From: Bifidobacterium lemurum
Lineage (GTDB): Bacteria; Actinomycetota; Actinomycetes; Actinomycetales; Bifidobacteriaceae
Assembly (NCBI RefSeq): GCF_014898175.1
Contig: NZ_CP062948.1
Location: 558,001-622,000 of the forward strand
Direction: 5' to 3'
DNA: 64,000 bases
The notes beneath the pieces are model-generated. The model did no database searches, was not told the origin of the DNA, and was given only the letters and a program-made list of their open reading frames with translations. A program made the translations under genes and the position numbers. This document shows positions 2,500-61,975 of the stretch, in pieces (positions within the stretch are counted from its first letter, which is position 1; every line of letters begins with the position of its first letter).

Positions 2500-3435
2500 A
2501 TGGCAAAGCATAGGATCATCATCGACTGCGACCCCGGACACGACGACGCCGTCGCGATTCTGATGGCGGCCGGCCATCCCGACATCGAGCTGCTCGGCAT
2601 CACCACCGTGCGCGGCAACCAGTCGCTGGAGAAGACCACCCGCAACGCGCTCAACGTCTGCCAGTATCTCGGCATCGACGTGCCGGTGTACAAGGGCATG
2701 AGCGTCCCCATGGTCATCGAGCCGAGGCCCGTCGAGGAACGCGTGCACGGCGATTCGGGACTTGACGGCCCGGTGTTCGACGAACTGACCAAAACCATCG
2801 AGGACAAGCACGCCATCAACTACCTCATCGACACCCTGATGGCCTCCGACGGCGACATCACGCTGGTTCCGACGGGTCCGCTGACCAACGTCGCGATGGC
2901 GATGCGCATCGAGCCCCGCATCATCCCCAAGATCAACCAGATCGTGCTGATGGGCGGCTGCTACCAGCTCGGCAATGTCACGCCTTCCGCGGAGTTCAAC
3001 ATCTGGGCCGACGGCGAGGCCGCGCATATCGTGTTCTCCAGCGGCGTGAAGGTGACCATGATGGGACTCGACATCACCCGCAAGGTGCTGTGCTATCCGT
3101 CCGTGATCGAGCGGATGAGCAAGCACGACAACCGCGCCGGCAAGCTGTTCTGCGATCTGATGACGTTCTTCAACAAGGGGCAGAAGAAGACGTTCGGCTG
3201 GGAGGGCGGCCCGCTGCATGATCCGACCACGGTCGCTTATCTGATCGACCCCTCCATCGTGACCGTCAAGAACATGCACACCGACATCGAAATCAACAGC
3301 GAGCAGAGCTACGGGCGCACCAACTGCGACTACTTCCTGCTCACCGACGACGTCAAGAACACCGACGTCGCCATCGACATCGACGTGGAGAAGTTCTGGG
3401 ATCTCGTCGAAGAGTGCATCAAGTACTACGACTGA
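2500..3435 (+). CDS. Nucleoside hydrolase (inosine-uridine preferring family)
   Basis: Cytoplasmic N-ribohydrolase that would split ribonucleosides into ribose and free base. The 311-residue length is typical of the family. The Ca2+/ribose-binding motif DCDPGHDDA is at residues 9-17. Further conserved blocks are MGGCYQLGNVTPSAEFN and HDPTTVAYL near the C-terminus, which supplies the late catalytic His/Asp. The gene stands alone, driven by a strong promoter with a LacI-type operator, which suggests induction by nucleosides or ribose. The base preference (pyrimidine or purine) cannot be decided from sequence. Start supported by AAGGAGG seven bases upstream. Confidence 0.92.
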   Translation: MAKHRIIIDCDPGHDDAVAILMAAGHPDIELLGITTVRGNQSLEKTTRNALNVCQYLGIDVPVYKGMSVPMVIEPRPVEERVHGDSGLDGPVFDELTKTIEDKHAINYLIDTLMASDGDITLVPTGPLTNVAMAMRIEPRIIPKINQIVLMGGCYQLGNVTPSAEFNIWADGEAAHIVFSSGVKVTMMGLDITRKVLCYPSVIERMSKHDNRAGKLFCDLMTFFNKGQKKTFGWEGGPLHDPTTVAYLIDPSIVTVKNMHTDIEINSEQSYGRTNCDYFLLTDDVKNTDVAIDIDVEKFWDLVEECIKYYD

Positions 3436-55160: not shown

Positions 55161-55170
55161 CCGCAACGAG

Positions 55171-55280
55171 CAATCGGTCCGTCCGGTCATGTCGCCACGT
55201 CCGGTCCGGTCGGTCCGTCCGGTCCGTTCAGTCCGTTAGGTCCGTCCGGTCCGTTCGACCGCCACGATCAGTCCGTTCGG
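55171..55280. repeat. Low-complexity GTCCG-rich tract
   Basis: Repeated GTCCGTCCG / GGTCCGTTC words. It is immediately upstream of the hairpin module at 55324. The gap 55161-55588 contains no credible gene. Confidence 0.8.
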
Positions 55281-55323
55281 TCCGGGTGAGCTGGTTGGTC
55301 CGGACCGAACGGGCCAGCCGACC

Positions 55324-55520
55324 CGAACGCCATGACCTTTACGGTCCCTATTGTGACACCCCCGTCAGGAAGTGCCGTGAAACACGCTTGATTGTGGTGT
55401 TTCACGGCACTTCCTGACGGGGGTATCGCAGGAGTGCTCGTGAAACATCCCGTTCGGCTGTGTTTCACGGCACAAGCCGACGGGGGTGTAACAGGAGTGC
55501 TCGTGAAACAATTCCGATGA
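55324..55520 (+). repeat. GTGAAACA/TGTTTCAC hairpin module, left copy
   Basis: Begins CGAACGCCATGACCTTTACG. 55358-55385 and 55397-55424 are perfect complements (28 bp). Two more GTGAAACA...TGTTTCAC hairpins follow, near 55439-55470 and 55500-55535, spaced by GCAGGAGTGCTC-type words. The module recurs in the same orientation at 61708-61876. Confidence 0.9.
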
Positions 55521-55588
55521 CGTTGTTTCACGGCACTTTCCGACGGGCTAACAGGATGGGTTTCGTGCGAGGGACGCCTGATTTTCGA

Positions 55589-56899
55589 TCACCGATGGCT
55601 CGTGGCCGGAAACAGGATGGTCACTGAAAAACGGTTATGCTCCGCGGACCATTGCATCGACAGCGTGCCGCCATAACGCTCCGCCACATATCGCATGCTC
55701 CTGGTGCCGATTCCGTGATATGCCGAATCGGCTTTCGTCGTCTTCGGCAATCCGTCTACGAACGCCACGGGTTGGCTGCAATAATTGTCAATCTGTATGG
55801 CCAGCATATTGTCGCCACTCTCGCGACTGGTCAGTGAGATGATCCGATTCTCCTCCGCTTCCAGTCCTTCTCGTTCAATCGCGTTATCCAACGCGTTGCC
55901 GAGCAGCGAATACACGTCGACATCCTCAAGAAAACCGAGCTTCGAACCATCGACCAATGTGGTGAGTTCGATGCCCCGCTCCGCGCAGATCAGACTTTTC
56001 TCCATAATCAACGTATCCAACGCACGATTGCCTGAAGATATCAGCGAATCATAGATATCGATGGCTTGTTCGATTTGAGCAAGGCTGTTCTCACGTTCGA
56101 CCGGCGTGCTGACATCGCGCAACAGCGTGATCTGATGCTTCAGGTCGTGACATTTACGGTTGATGATGTCGATGTTCTCCTGCGTCAACCGGTATCGCCG
56201 CTCAGCGGCGCGAAGCATCTGCTCCATCGCGGCGTTGCGCGCCATATCCACCGAGCGGTTGAACACATTGAACTGCACCACCAGCAGCAACGCGCTGCAC
56301 GTCAACTGGTAGACCAATGTGGCCGTGCTCACATATGAAAAACTGTAGGCCCAATAGTTCAGCACCCCCACAATCAGCGAGGACACCACGACGAATGTCA
56401 GCATCGCGACATTCGAAACATCCACCTCATTACGATGAAGACGCTGCGCGCACACTTTCCACACGATGGCCAACGTCACCAAACAAGCCATCAATTCCAG
56501 CGCGACGACCATCAACCCGTCCTCCGGCATGGCCAGCTCGATCAGCAGATCCTCCATATACATCACGTTCTGCACGCCATGCGACGCGACCGCGATGAAC
56601 AACGCCCTTGTCGCGGACATTTCGAAACAGCACCAAAGCAACAGCGCCGAAACCGCCATAAGAGCGGTGAATATCCATGGATACCAGCCAATACGGAACC
56701 ACGGCAACATGTAGAAATACGATCCCGTCGCCAACCAATACCCTACGGGGATGGTGACGAACGGTGTCCACACCAGCATCCTGACCCAGAACAACGACCG
56801 CCGTCTTGCCCGCATGGCCATCAGCAATTCCACCACGAACAGCGCAACCGAGAAATTCGTCAGGCAATCCCATACCGTCACCAGCATCTCCGTCAACAC
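55589..56899 (-). CDS. GHKL-family sensor histidine kinase (AgrC-like)
   Basis: 436 residues. About six membrane helices fill the first 210 residues, then a dimerization/phosphorylation region with His in NRKCHDLKHQITLL (about residue 254) and a GHKL ATPase domain with the N-box LLGNALDNAIE and G-boxes GIGTRSMRYVAERYGG. This form pairs with LytTR regulators. It lies 36 bp downstream of the LytTR gene on the same strand. The multi-helix sensor is the type used for peptide or cell-wall signals; no peptide gene is seen nearby. Confidence 0.92.
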   Translation of the reverse strand: MLTEMLVTVWDCLTNFSVALFVVELLMAMRARRRSLFWVRMLVWTPFVTIPVGYWLATGSYFYMLPWFRIGWYPWIFTALMAVSALLLWCCFEMSATRALFIAVASHGVQNVMYMEDLLIELAMPEDGLMVVALELMACLVTLAIVWKVCAQRLHRNEVDVSNVAMLTFVVVSSLIVGVLNYWAYSFSYVSTATLVYQLTCSALLLVVQFNVFNRSVDMARNAAMEQMLRAAERRYRLTQENIDIINRKCHDLKHQITLLRDVSTPVERENSLAQIEQAIDIYDSLISSGNRALDTLIMEKSLICAERGIELTTLVDGSKLGFLEDVDVYSLLGNALDNAIEREGLEAEENRIISLTSRESGDNMLAIQIDNYCSQPVAFVDGLPKTTKADSAYHGIGTRSMRYVAERYGGTLSMQWSAEHNRFSVTILFPATSHR

Positions 56900-56935
56900 G
56901 CACCTCCCTCAGCTGTTCCGGATAACGTGCTCCTA

Positions 56936-57637
56936 TCACGAGCCGATAAATCGAACCAACGCATCCATGAATTCCTTTTTCTTGCGACGGGTCAACGGCA
57001 ATTCATCGCCGGAAACGACGACCACGTCACCGCGCACCTCATTCACATGCATAAGATTCACCAGATAACTGGCATGGCAGCGGGCGAATCGTCCCGCCTC
57101 CAAGCGCTGCTCCGTCTGGCTTAAAGTGCCCCACCCCTCCAGCACGCCGCGAGTCGTATGGTAGCGCAGTCGGTGCTGAAAGACCTCGACGTATTGGATA
57201 TCGGATTCCGGTAACCGAATCAGTCCGTTTTTGGATTGCAGCACAAACTCACGCCGACGCATTTTGCGCGCATAGGCGACGGCCTTGTCCATTTTGAACC
57301 GAAACTGCGGATAGGAGACCGGTTTCACCACAAAATCCATGGCATCGACCTCATAGCCTTTGATCGCGTACTGCGCCATGCTCGTCACGAAGATCAGACA
57401 GGTGCGCGAATCCAACTCACGCATACGGCGCGCGGCTTCCATGCCGTCGAGATGAGGCATTTCGATGTCCATGAACACGATATCGAAGGGCGAATGCCTC
57501 ACGTTCAAAAACGCCAAAGCGCTCTCGAATACGGTGCAGACGACATCCTCGCCACTTTCCTTGGCCCACCGTTCCGCGCAGGCGCGCAGCCAGCGCGCAT
57601 CCGCCGCGTCATCGTCCACTATCGCAACATTGAACAT
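56936..57637 (-). CDS. LytTR-family response regulator
   Basis: 233 residues. Receiver domain with phospho-acceptor Asp in FDIVFMDIEMPHLDG, Thr in FVTSMAQYA and Lys in VVKPVSYPQF; then a LytTR DNA-binding domain (LRLPESDIQYVEV to HASYLVNLMHVNEV). ATG at 57637 (MFNVAIVDDD) with AAGGAG upstream. Transcribed first, ahead of the kinase. Confidence 0.93.
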   Translation of the reverse strand: MFNVAIVDDDAADARWLRACAERWAKESGEDVVCTVFESALAFLNVRHSPFDIVFMDIEMPHLDGMEAARRMRELDSRTCLIFVTSMAQYAIKGYEVDAMDFVVKPVSYPQFRFKMDKAVAYARKMRRREFVLQSKNGLIRLPESDIQYVEVFQHRLRYHTTRGVLEGWGTLSQTEQRLEAGRFARCHASYLVNLMHVNEVRGDVVVVSGDELPLTRRKKKEFMDALVRFIGS

Positions 57638-57743
57638 GACAGAACACTCCTTCGTCTCCTTGAATTCCATGGTAATGGGAACGCAGCAGGACAACGGGGC
57701 CTACGGCTGCTCATCGCGTAAACCAAACGACCGATTATGCACT

Positions 57744-57797
57744 ACGCGTTGAGACGGGCCTCATCCGACGCATACGTTGAGGGCAAACGACGTTGAT
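57744..57797. promoter_or_regulatory. Candidate LytTR boxes between regulator and lipoprotein
   Basis: CGTTGA occurs at 57747, 57775 and 57791. TACGTTGAG (57773-57781) fits the LytTR half-site consensus fully, GACGTTGAT (57789-57797) at eight of nine positions. Spacing (28 and 16 bp) is not the classical 21 bp. They lie in the divergent gap 57638-57938, which has no other gene. Confidence 0.4.
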
Positions 57798-57938
57798 GGC
57801 ACGCTTCCCTCGCATTCGTAAAGCGGCAACGTCATACGCGGCACCGAAGCCGAACAGGAGAACGGAAAGGAGATGGCACTCCTCGGCACCGCGTACGCCA
57901 TCATCAACCAATACCGGCTACGAGACAAGAAGGACCTC

Positions 57939-58613
57939 ATGAAACTCGCATTGAAACCCGCGGCAGCCATTCTCTCGCTTGCGCTCGCGGTGGGCGCTCT
58001 GGGCGGCTGCGGAGCCCAGACCGACGACCAGCAGAACACGGACACCGCAGTCAGCACCGAATTCTCCACCGGCGTATTCACCAATTATGTGAACAGCGAA
58101 GGCATGGCCGGATACGTCTCCTCATTGGAGATGGGCTATGGCAACACCAACACTTTGTTCGAACGCAACACCCTGGTGCTGACCGACAACGCCGACAGCG
58201 ACCGCGGCGACATCGCCACCGCCAAGCCGTACATCGACACCTCCACCACCAAACGCTACGAGCTCACCAAGGATTTCTATGTGGGGTCCAAGGGCATCCA
58301 TCGCATCGCGATGTTCTACGGCACATGGACCAACGACGATATGGAAGTCACCTTGGAAACCCCCGAATACTGGTCGTATGTGGATTATGAAGGCGACGGA
58401 TACTACTCCTTCAACAAGGACGAGAGCTGCGATTTCATGGTGCGCACAGGCGAGGAGGGCACAGCCGGCGATATCAGCCTCAGATTCGGAGGCCCCGTGC
58501 TTCAGCCGTTCGCCGATAGCGGCAACGAACCGCAAACCGTGACGGTGAATATGGAGGATTACACCTTCGAATACCCGGCGGGAGACACCTCGGACGACGA
58601 CCCGGTCGAGTGA
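57939..58613 (+). CDS. Exported lipoprotein of unknown function
   Basis: 224 residues. Lipoprotein signal peptide: MKLALKPAAAILSLALAVGA then LGGC, with the lipobox Cys at residue 24. The mature part is acidic and Tyr/Thr-rich, with a likely beta fold (YVDYEGDGYYSFNKDESCDF). No family is recognised. ATG at 57939 has AAGAAGG; an in-frame ATG at 57873 would place 22 residues before the signal peptide and is less likely. It is divergent from the LytTR gene and 35 bp upstream of the GH3 gene, so probably in an operon with it under that system's control. Confidence 0.8.
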   Translation: MKLALKPAAAILSLALAVGALGGCGAQTDDQQNTDTAVSTEFSTGVFTNYVNSEGMAGYVSSLEMGYGNTNTLFERNTLVLTDNADSDRGDIATAKPYIDTSTTKRYELTKDFYVGSKGIHRIAMFYGTWTNDDMEVTLETPEYWSYVDYEGDGYYSFNKDESCDFMVRTGEEGTAGDISLRFGGPVLQPFADSGNEPQTVTVNMEDYTFEYPAGDTSDDDPVE

Positions 58614-58648
58614 TTCCACAACACAGCATTCATCACAAGGATTACGCA

Positions 58649-61600
58649 ATGATTAAGAATAAAAAGCATTTCGCGATAATGAACGCCATCTTCGCGGCCA
58701 TCGTCGCAGCTCTGGTGGCGTTGAACATGGTGGCGCTCTATTGGGACGGCGCACTACGTCTGGTGCTCGGCACGGTGGGCGATTCATCGAGCGTGTCCAT
58801 CGACGCCGACGGCAATCTCTATCGAACCTCGTTCAGCTCAGACGAGGAACTGGAACAGGCCCAGCTGCAACTGTCGCGGGATATCGCGGCAGAAGGCACC
58901 GTGCTATTGAAGAACGACGAAGGTGCGCTGCCGCTTGACGCCGGCTCGAGCGTCACCGTATTCGGCGAGGCCTCGACGGAATGGCTGATCAACGGCACCG
59001 GCTCCAGCGCCATCGGCACGGAGGATTTCGCCTACGTCGATGTCAAATGGTCGCTGGAAAACGCCGGCTTCACCGTGAACGAGGACGTTTGGAACTACTA
59101 CAAGGATGACGGCATCAGCCGCGGCGGCGGCAGCTCCAACGGCGACTGGTCGGTGAACGAACAGCCGTGGGATACGGTGAACGCCGATATGGGTTCCACA
59201 TTCGACGGCTACACGGACGCGGCGATCATGGTCATCGGTCGCACCGGCGGCGAAGGCGGCGATTTGGCCACTTCCATGGAACAGTTCGGCGGTTCCGCCG
59301 ATGAAAGCTACCTCGAGTTGACCGACGAAGAGGAAAGCATGCTTGCCGGCATCGCGCAAGCCGGTTTCGATAAGGTCGTCGTAGTCATCAACGCCGCCAA
59401 CCCGTTCGAGATGGGATTCCTGGATCAGGCGGAATACGGCGTGGATGCCTGCCTGTGGATGGGCCCCACCGGCGCGTATGGCCTCGGGCTCTGGGCAAGG
59501 TGCTTTCCGGCGAAGACAATCCCTCCGGCAAACTCGTGGATACACAGGTCTACGACGTGTTCTCGTCCCCTGCGATGCAGAACTTCGGCAACAGCCGGTA
59601 TGTGGATGACCAAGGCAACATCATCGGCGATGGATATACCTATGTGACGTATTCCGAAGGCATCTACGTCGGATACCGCTACTATGAGACCCGCTACGAG
59701 GATTCGATCATGGGCACCGACAACGTCGGAGACTATGACTACGAGCAGGAGGTCGCGTTCCCCTTCGGCTACGGCATGTCCTATACGGATTTCACATGGT
59801 CCAACTACACCATGAGCGAACAGGACGGCGTCATCACCGTCTCCGTTGACGTGGAGAATTCGGGAGACGCGGCGGGCAAGGACGTGCTCGAAGTTTATTT
59901 CCAGTCGCCCTACACCGATTATGATCGCGACAACGGCGTGGAGAAGTCGGCGGTGGAATTGGCCGCCTTTGCCAAAACCGATCTGCTCGAGCCCGGCGAG
60001 ACGCAGACCGTCACCGCCACGTTCGACGTCGACGACATGAAATCCTACGATGCCCAAGGCGCTCAGACCTACATCATGGACGAGGGCACCTACTATGTGA
60101 CCGCCGCACGTGACGCCCATCAGGCGGTGAACAATATGCTGACGGCCAAGGGCTACGACGTCGATGACGATTCGGCGAGCGCCGATATGGTCGCATCCTA
60201 TGAGGTCGATGCCCTGCGCACGCTGGACACCGACGACGCCACCGGCGCCACGGTCACGAACCTGTTCGATGACGCCCTCGCCGAGGACGCCGAATATCTG
60301 ACCCGCTCCAACTGGACGATGATGGATGACAACGGCATCGCCTACTCCACCTCCACCGCCGTGCAGGATGGCGTGACGTACCCGACGCACGAGGCCGACG
60401 ATGAGCTGATCGCCAACATCGACGCCACCGGCTGGGAAGCCTCCGGACGTCCGGCGGACGCCGACAACAACGATGACGTCACCGTCGATACTGACCGTGG
60501 CCTGGAACTGGTGGACATGGTTGGCCTCGATTACGACGATCCGCAGTGGGAACAGCTGCTCGACGAGCTCAAGGTCAGCGAGATGCACCTGCTGTACAAC
60601 AAGTCCGGCTTCAACACCCCGATGATCGAAAGCGTCAACAAGCCCGCCACCGCCGATACCGACGGTCCGGCTGGTCTGGCCAATTTCATGAGTGGTTGGG
60701 GCAGCTTCAACTACAGCACCGACTACATGCTCGCCTCCACATGGAATGTGGATCTCGCCCAGCAGATGGGCGAACTGGTGGGCGAGGACGGTCTGCGCTC
60801 CAACACGGTGGGCTGGTATGCCCCTGCGATGAACATGCACCGCACCCCGTTCGGCGGACGTGGCTTCGAATACTATTCCGAGGATCCGATGCTCTCCGGC
60901 GCGATGGGTACCGCCGAATGCCTGGGCGCCACCTCGAAGGGTCTGGTGACCTACATCAAGCACTTCGCGCTGAACGAGCAGGAGACGAACCGCAGTTCCG
61001 TGGCCACTTGGGCCAACGAACAGACGATTCGCGAAATCTATCTCAAACCGTTTGAGATGTCCATCAAGGAGGGCAACGCCAACGGTCTGATGGATTCGAT
61101 GAACCGTCTGGGCTTCCGCTACACGCGCGGCTATTACGCGCTGCTCACGTCGCTGCTGCGCGTCGAGTGGGGCTTCACGGGTACGGTGATCACCGACGCG
61201 GCCAATGTCTCACCAGAGGCGGTGAATGACATGTGCCTGTCCGCGGGCACGGATCTTCAGTTGACCACCGGTCAGAACAAGCTGAGCGACACGAAGTCCA
61301 ACCGAGTGCGCAACGCCTTGCGCGAGGCCTCGAAGCATACCTTGTACGCATTCGGCAACAGCGCGGCGATGAACGGCATCACCCGAGGCAGCAACCTCTC
61401 CGCCGGCAATATGGCGGTATACCAGGTGATCCTGATCGCGATCGACGTGCTAGCGGCTCTCGCCTTGGCTGTCGGCGAATGGTTCGTCATTCGCAGGTCC
61501 CGCCTTGAAGCCCCTGTGCTGACCGCGGAACAGAAACGCGCGAAGCTCATGCGCGGACTGATCATCCTTGGCGCGGTCGTGGTCGTTCTCGCCGCCGCTG

Positions 61601-61650
61601 GAATCGGACTGTATTTCTACATCGATTCCCAGATGATCTCCACAGTCTGA
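58649..61650 (+). pseudogene. Domain-permuted, membrane-anchored GH3 glycosidase with a -1 frameshift
   Basis: Restoring one base gives about 1000 residues. Order: membrane helix (AIFAAIVAALVALNMVALYW), then the domain normally second in GH3 (EGTVLLKNDEGALPL), a fibronectin-III-like part (VAFPFGYGMSYTDF), and only then the TIM barrel (TADTDGPAGL, YIKHFALNEQETNR, GTVITDAANVS with candidate nucleophile Asp), and two C-terminal helices. The frames join near 59486-59490, where GCCTCGGGCTC lacks one G (GLGALGKVLSGE restored). Start ATG at 58649 with AAGGA. It follows the lipoprotein after 35 bp. Confidence 0.88.
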
Positions 61651-61707
61651 GTGTCAACCACTCAAATGTCCCAACCGGTTCGTTCGAATCGACTGGCTCG
61701 AACGAAC

Positions 61708-61876
61708 CGAACGCCATGACCTTTACGGCCCCTATTGCGATACCCCCGTCGGATTGTGTCGTGAAACACCGCGTTCAAGCGTGTTTCACGGCACTTCCTG
61801 ACGGGGGTATCGCAGGAGTGCTCGTGAAACATCCCATTCGGTCGTGTTTCACGGCACAATCCGACGGGGGTATCAC
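61708..61876 (+). repeat. GTGAAACA/TGTTTCAC hairpin module, right copy
   Basis: Same orientation as 55324-55520 and starting with the same CGAACGCCATGACCTTTACG. Here the left arm 61739-61769 pairs with the distal arm 61844-61874 at 30 of 31 positions, the exception being a G-U pair. The gap 61651-61975 has no credible gene. Confidence 0.9.
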
Positions 61877-61975
61877 AACGGACGGCGCACAGCGACGGGC
61901 GGTTGAACGCGCGCGGGGTTGAGGCGATGGTGAAATCGCAACGGACGGTGCATACGGCGCGCAGCGACGGGCGAT

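Follow-up and report, generated by a model that had tools for sequence, protein, structure and literature searches.

Half-parS sites are bound by ParB of Pseudomonas aeruginosa and of some other species, as stated in two reports (PMC10419367, PMC7022226), and the authors of the P. aeruginosa study call the role of these sites enigmatic there (PMC10419367). In the present work, we analysed a stretch of 64,000 nucleotides from Bifidobacterium lemurum (contig NZ_CP062948.1, positions 558,001 to 622,000; hereafter the window), in which two hairpin arrays of the same orientation, R1 (55324-55555) and R2 (61708-61880), enclose genes for a GHKL sensor kinase, a LytTR response regulator, a lipoprotein and a glycosidase of family GH3. 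The best combined explanation, which we regard as fairly probable, is that the genes were gained as one more copy of a module that recurs, and that the arrays belong to an independent, protein-bound repeat family with arms of half-parS sequence.

Dispersed extragenic palindromes of the repetitive extragenic palindrome (REP)/RAYT kind occur singly or in tandem, and a tetranucleotide at the base of their hairpin is conserved. Operators of regulators consist of inverted arms with a fixed spacer, and the target promoters of LytTR regulators contain a direct repeat about 21 bp apart. Among the titles listed in literature searches, none was relevant on ParB/parS with Bifidobacterium, and none concerned such a repeat under repetitive extragenic palindromes with Bifidobacterium; for the pairing of the kinase with GH3, no description was found in literature judged by titles and the starts of abstracts.

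Conservation and distribution of the repeat family

The pattern GTGAAACA-N13-TGTTTCAC is found 28 times in the B. lemurum genome (G000), always exact, at 15 sites; two of these are R1 and R2, and 13 lie away from the cassette. Each unit has as its arms CGTGAAACA and TGTTTCACG, the halves of parS (TGTTTCACGTGAAACA, a contiguous 16-bp palindrome that is itself present in this genome), and all 56 arms of the 28 units are exact over 9 bp. Contiguous parS sites with at most one mismatch are present at oriC only, where four of them (two exact, two with one mismatch) lie at 1075829-1078871, adjoining genes with ParB, ParA, GidB, 60KD_IMP, DnaA, DNA polymerase III beta and gyrase B domains; DnaA-box words are clustered there as well. 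Four parS sites were also found in the nearest (sister) genome, G130, at 1776186-1779227. In the window itself, a hairpin search permitting up to one mismatch gave five TGAAACA-N13-TGTTTCA units (three in R1, two in R2), each with no mismatch, and none in 100 shuffled sequences.

As the 28 units were chosen by their exact arms, mismatch counts and not identity are the fair test of conservation. These were made on 775,020 distinct bases of the genome (of 2.97 Mb), with all 15 sites included. Over the 18 arm bases, 28 units had no mismatch, none had one to three, two had four and fifteen had five; with reversed arms as a control, five had four mismatches and 23 had five, above the real counts. 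Genome-wide, no copy with one mismatch over 16 bases was detected. Averaged over pairs of the 28 units, identity was 1.00 for the arms, 0.35 for the loop and 0.57-0.58 for the flanks. Of the loop lengths tried (6-25), only 13 nt (28 times) and 8 nt (once) occurred, and neighbouring units were spaced by 63 bp in 13 of 13 cases. The DNA helix has 10.5 bp per turn, and the arm centres, 21 and 42 bp apart, are thus separated by two and four helical turns. In the outer stem, 309 of 476 cells are paired, compared with 324 on average after shuffling; this gave no sign of covariation, and RNA structure as the conserved quantity was rejected for this reason; searches of Rfam with the hairpins returned sub-threshold microRNA matches only. 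Since the arms are invariant, loop length and 63-bp spacing are fixed and covariation is lacking, we infer that the repeats are a DNA element of rigid geometry read by a protein rather than an RNA stem.

Half-site 8-mers outside exact units made up 19 of 75 in the 775,020 bases: seven at oriC, three in partial units, four in coding sequence near 1285.7 kb and five single. The four near 1285.7 kb are GTGAAACA half-sites in direct orientation, spaced by 12, 21 and 12 bp (G000 about 1285695-1285748; L188 18695-18750), at the start of a long open reading frame (ORF) near an array. Besides parB, these 775 kb (of a genome of 2.97 Mb) contained no further gene of the ParB family.

Across 112 genomes of the genus, searched genome-wide with at most one mismatch over 16 bases (the pattern read backward, as a control, gave no match), GTGAAACA-N13-TGTTTCAC was found seven times in G130 (five exact, two with one mismatch), as a single mismatched match in each of two further genomes and not at all in the remaining 108. 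Plasmid records held no match to R1, and the tandem-hairpin pattern had none in a genome contig collection from which records of or near the genome of the window are possibly excluded. All BLAST matches of R2 with E below 0.3 overlapped or adjoined an exact unit. The mean distance of the 15 sites from parS is 340 kb and the greatest is 855 kb, with none around the terminus; this clustering around oriC has p of about 5e-5 for 15 sites and 1.5e-3 for 11 merged clusters.

By an ORF-based call, four of the array sites stand between convergent genes, ten between co-directional genes, none between divergent genes, and one was unclear. Every one of the 15 is 3' of at least one predicted gene, and called gene starts overlap the array at 1268 and 1284 kb. 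Several sites are small gene-free insertions relative to G130, such as about 120 versus 8 bp at 1768 kb; the site at 377 kb corresponds to an insertion of about 510 bp that includes a tandem repeat. Sites at 1177 kb and 1932 kb are common to both genomes. A different palindromic repeat occupies some of the same gaps in G130 (partly judged by eye). It should be added that G130 904950-905205 is a half-parS array and that the matching gap in B. lemurum (G000 1925950-1926190) holds a palindromic repeat of the TCATTCTGAGCG type, as if the kinds interchange. A segment of 15.5 kb (G000 1268631-1284118) with GH1, esterase, ABC transporter, GH2-like and LacI genes starts at an array and has no counterpart at the matching G130 position; therefore, arrays and gained segments meet elsewhere too. 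The array at G000 about 1174443-1174786 lies at a rearrangement or indel junction, with flanks matching G130 places some 32 kb apart.

The insert between cysS and the efflux gene

The features of the segment that carries R1 and R2 are as follows (positions in the window).

55169..61938, no strand: lineage-specific insert between convergent cysS and cation-efflux gene, about 6.77 kb, CAACG at both junctions
55174..55275, no strand: short GGTCCGT-type tandem repeat, left of R1
55324..55555, plus: R1, three half-parS hairpin units, 63-bp period, arms from 55377, 55440 and 55503 (G000 613377, 613440 and 613503)
55589..56899, minus: GHKL sensor kinase, 436 aa, Pfam HATPase_c_5 (3.4e-19)
56936..57694, minus: LytTR response regulator, 252 aa, Pfam Response_reg (9.6e-18) and LytTR (3e-16)
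57695..57872, no strand: divergent promoter region, without a significant direct repeat at 20-23 bp (tested over 57640-57938)
57873..58613, plus: predicted lipoprotein, orphan, start at 57873 or 57939, lipobox LGGC by eye
58610..59647, plus: first GH3 ORF, GH3_C domain (Pfam), hydrophobic start by eye, frame break near the end
59455..61650, plus: second GH3 ORF, Fn3-like and GH3_N domains, hydrophobic segments at the C-terminus by eye
61708..61880, plus: R2, two half-parS hairpin units, 63-bp period, arms from 61761 and 61824

The cassette is flanked by cysS and the cation-efflux gene; ffh was recognised from the sequence alone. The insert has a G+C content of 54-62%; that of cysS is 65-69% and that of the efflux gene about 61%. 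Beside the 377-kb array there is a second short tandem repeat of the GGTCCGTT/AACGGACC type (L112 7320-7604), like the one beside R1.

In G130, whose cysS and efflux proteins share 93% and 97% amino-acid identity with those of B. lemurum, the two genes are also convergent, and the aligned parts are separated by 46 bp, compared with 6821 bp in B. lemurum. The alignment with G130 stops at window position 55168 and restarts at 61939. Of 48 genus genomes that carry both genes on one contig, 41 have a gap shorter than 1 kb between them and seven, B. lemurum included, a larger one; the 48 are a subset of 51 genomes with an efflux match among 101 searched, again with B. lemurum among them. Because the G130 site is empty and these genes are so close in most of the genus, the segment 55169-61938 is, on this comparison, a lineage-specific gain. 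The 5 bp CAACG present at both junctions, which corresponds to G130 bases 3100-3104, may be a target-site duplication or else due to chance or to alignment overlap. No transposase or integrase was found among the five insert ORFs scanned with Pfam (kinase, regulator, the two GH3 ORFs and lipoprotein); other overlapping frames were outside the scan.

R1 and R2 are themselves related. They form direct repeats of 97 nt with 94% identity (D2, 55397-55493 and 61781-61877) and of 93 nt with 78% identity (D3, 55293-55385 and 61677-61769), both with a start-to-start distance of 6384, and their longest exact match is 55 bp in the same orientation. With R2 as BLAST query against its own genome, R1 was recovered with 87% over 175 bp. 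The two have a leader of about 20 bp in common, and all other R2 matches stop short of it; one of R1 and R2 may therefore be a copy of the other. On account of the 55 identical bases in one orientation, a loop-out between R1 and R2 is possible in principle. As the source of the empty site it was rejected, for G130 retains no repeat: neither array is present at its cysS-efflux junction, and the insert reaches past both R1 and R2.

An earlier note on this DNA had described one module standing twice, 6.4 kb apart in one orientation, which agrees with the spacing of D2 and D3. The genes that it named, namely kinase, LytTR regulator, lipoprotein and GH3, were confirmed by the Pfam analysis, the lipoprotein as a predicted one that fits no family, with the correction that GH3 consists of two overlapping ORFs instead of one open gene. 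Its view of a unit gained or lost by recombination between the repeats holds with respect to gain, given the empty site in G130, and is not supported with respect to recombination, as this site is without a repeat.

The recurrent kinase, regulator and GH3 module

With the window kinase as query, 11 of 21 first-look candidates in the B. lemurum genome were scored, and each of these 11 lies no more than 5 kb from a GH3 gene. The probability of independent random placement of 11 kinases near GH3 genes is roughly 6e-13, an overstated figure given that several modules are neighbours. A match to the LytTR regulator adjoins eight of them. Apart from the window, none of the ten kinase-GH3 places contains an array, the nearest being about 10 kb off. 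Among 20 kinases from other genomes (one per genome, hand-picked from the list of kinase matches), every one has a regulator match and 17 have GH3 within 5 kb, in 12 of the 17 with a gap of less than 400 bp. In the five looser pairs (0.9-3.7 kb), a weaker GH3 of 809-855 aa was nearest in four cases and a split GH3 in one. In the phylum, GH3 matches with E of 1e-60 or better were obtained in four of 376 genomes, B. lemurum included, with two candidates scored per genome; G265, from a different family of the same phylum, has regulator, kinase and GH3 in a row. The window pair has the domains of a GHKL/LytTR two-component system according to Pfam (GHKL ATPase, receiver and LytTR). Judged by domains and gene neighbourhood, the cassette genes are a gained copy of a recurrent GHKL kinase/LytTR/permuted-GH3 module.

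The domain order of the window GH3 (GH3_C, then Fn3-like, then GH3_N) is permuted, but split over two ORFs in different frames. In the stretches of the same genome that were covered, 15 further GH3 matches reach 800 aa or more; 14 of these correspond to single ORFs with 961-1116 aa, and the last has 827 aa. The frame break between the two GH3 domains probably leaves the window enzyme inactive, if it is real and not an error of assembly. A GH3 beside another kinase/LytTR pair, in G106 (L161 2201-5321), is likewise split into two ORFs, of 534 and 499 aa. By sequence, a GH3 paralogue is nearest to beta-glucosidases of known structure, including 5k6l and 5wug, which have the permuted order (PDB); its NCBIfam scores are far below the curated cut-offs. 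The first GH3 part had no relative in a scan of the genome contig collection, with the possible exclusion of records given above.

The lipoprotein is an orphan: among 151 genomes of the family only B. lemurum itself gave a match, and in the phylum six of 396 genomes, B. lemurum included, did so at E of 0.01 or lower, none of the others convincing (the best other match had E of 3e-4, 26% identity and a stop). Neither NCBIfam nor Pfam contained its family, and PDB returned nothing below E of 0.08.

The kinase might sense a glycan or its breakdown product at the cell surface, upon which the regulator would switch on the neighbouring lipoprotein and glycosidase genes. Across the modules, GH3 would be a probably membrane-anchored, domain-permuted enzyme, and each kinase/regulator pair may drive its own surface enzyme. 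Direct repeats 20-23 bp apart in the module promoters reached at most 3 of 200 shuffles in four of ten cases; the other six, that of the window included, were no better than 20 of 200. A LytTR site in the window promoter was rejected at this spacing, and three CGTTGA words at other spacings were noted by eye. If the reconstruction is right, GH3 glycosidases that are each paired with a GHKL kinase, at 11 places of this genome and at eight of them with LytTR, form a regulatory layer of glycan use.

With both operons pointing outwards, the cassette is a divergon set in a convergent gap, and gene 3' ends face each other at either junction. As gene 3' ends are the usual location of the arrays, an array at each end of the cassette needs no special link between the two. 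Arrays and cassette would be two independent things superposed, and the half-parS sequence of the arms suggests docking sites of a protein that organises the chromosome rather than cassette ends. The earlier note, which took the repeats to define the cassette, had named their wide occurrence without relation to it, together with lack of co-regulation, as a finding that would speak against this; the former half is what was observed, with 13 of the 15 sites elsewhere and several gene-free. Nor are the repeats tied to these genes, for the kinase/GH3 pairing recurs in this genome and in the family without them. Kinase, regulator and GH3 recur elsewhere, and the lipoprotein was confined to this one genome among the 151 of the family. 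The role that had been assigned to the repeats is most likely wrong.

Discussion

It is possible, although we would hold it only tentatively, that the arrays are mobile palindromes of the REP or miniature inverted-repeat transposable element (MITE) type, copied by a transposase, with arms kept for the enzyme and not for a chromosomal function. Their extragenic position at gene 3' ends, the gene-free insertions relative to G130 at 1768 and 377 kb and the other palindromes seen by eye in some of the same G130 gaps would suit such elements. Decayed copies would then be expected, but a single mismatch was seen nowhere in the genome, nor two or three in the 775 kb, and the arms coincide with parS halves. 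Transposition by RAYT was rejected, as Y1_Tnp (PF01797) was detected in neither B. lemurum nor G130, with five of 14 controls positive; other transposases were not searched. That R1 and R2 are the functional ends of a mobile cassette that recombines between them, as the earlier note had it, appears very improbable: the 55 bp of exact identity in one orientation, the absence of the segment from this place in G130 and the second segment, of 15.5 kb, absent from the matching G130 place and also starting at an array, are as one would predict, but the empty site has no repeat, the insert extends past both arrays, 13 of 15 array sites are elsewhere and the five scanned ORFs include no recombinase.

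RNA hairpins at gene 3' ends, acting as terminators or as stabilisers of mRNA, would account for the long stems, perfect at some units, and for the position of all 15 sites 3' of at least one predicted gene. They would leave the 63-bp DNA phasing unexplained, and an outer stem without compensatory pairing, inner arms of invariant sequence and a loop fixed at 13 make this explanation improbable. The remaining alternative, by which the arrays are operators of a palindrome-binding regulator other than ParB or else repeats like uptake sequences, is doubtful and still to be taken into account: inverted 9-bp arms with a fixed spacer look operator-like, and ten of 15 sites lie between co-directional genes and hence upstream of one. 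Four of 15, on the other hand, lie between convergent genes, the arms are the parS halves of this very genome, and of the 75 half-sites in 775 kb only 19, seven of them at oriC, fall outside exact units.

We thus return to the gained module with an independent, protein-bound half-parS repeat. A protein would bind the arms as DNA on one helical face; the best candidate is chromosomal ParB, for which the arrays could serve, at a distance from oriC, as accessory places of docking or bridging. ParB as the binder is the leading candidate, albeit a tentative one. That the arrays are dedicated extra docking sites of ParB or a ParB-family protein, with paired half-parS arms in exact helical phase by means of which this protein would clamp or bridge the chromosome half on the side of the origin, is a conjecture we would put forward with similar reserve.

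Several observations weigh against parts of this picture. The arrays hold the parS halves everted and 13 bp apart, which is not a parS site, and the family is confined to B. lemurum and its sister among the 112 genus genomes, with one mismatched arm base in two of seven sister copies. The 11 GH3-module kinases cluster at oriC as well (304 kb, p 2e-4; merged 0.012), and for this reason the clustering of arrays is weak evidence for ParB; as proof it was rejected, being unspecific. As to the module, no regulator match is listed alongside three kinases of the genome (1118290, 1123986 and 1236055), three of the 20 sampled kinases elsewhere lack a GH3 match within 5 kb, and the window promoter (57640-57938) is without a 20-23 bp direct repeat, 171 of 200 shuffles being as good. 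Corynebacterium glutamicum is an actinobacterium, as is Streptomyces coelicolor. In the data reviewed in PMC7022226, ParB of neither species binds half-parS sites.

If the ParB reading is true, the arrays are a naturally evolved counterpart of half-parS binding in a Noc-like layout, and a small, perfectly conserved and countable set of half-parS arrays would make the role of half-parS directly testable.

Compared with known systems, the window pair resembles those of the AgrC/AgrA type in the adjacency of GHKL kinase and LytTR regulator. It differs from them by its partner, a glycosidase, and no agrB- or agrD-like gene was seen in the five scanned ORFs, with short peptides and other frames outside the scan. 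The paralogous GH3 aligns by its N-terminal half near the N-terminus of the permuted beta-glucosidases 5k6l and 5wug, with the sandwich domain first; unlike these, the B. lemurum GH3 enzymes have apparent membrane segments at both ends and an adjacent GHKL kinase, and the window copy is frame-broken. With REP/RAYT systems the arrays share the dispersed extragenic palindromes, and they differ in invariant arms without covariation and in a genome that has no Y1_Tnp gene.

The nearest likeness is to the half-parS sites of P. aeruginosa, which also have the sequence of one parS arm and are scattered away from oriC (PMC10419367, PMC7022226); GTTTCAC, one of the two heptamers preferred there, is contained in the B. 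lemurum arms. There, the sites are heptamer motifs, several hundred of which are bound, whereas the arrays described here are paired, everted and phased, with fully conserved arms at 15 extragenic sites. The Noc sites of Bacillus subtilis are likewise dispersed targets of a ParB-family protein with none in the terminus region, but number about 70 palindromes with a sequence of their own (PMC4331003), where here the sequence is that of parS. The repeat family would represent a new variant of half-parS sites or of extragenic palindromes, and it is a more surprising object than the module.

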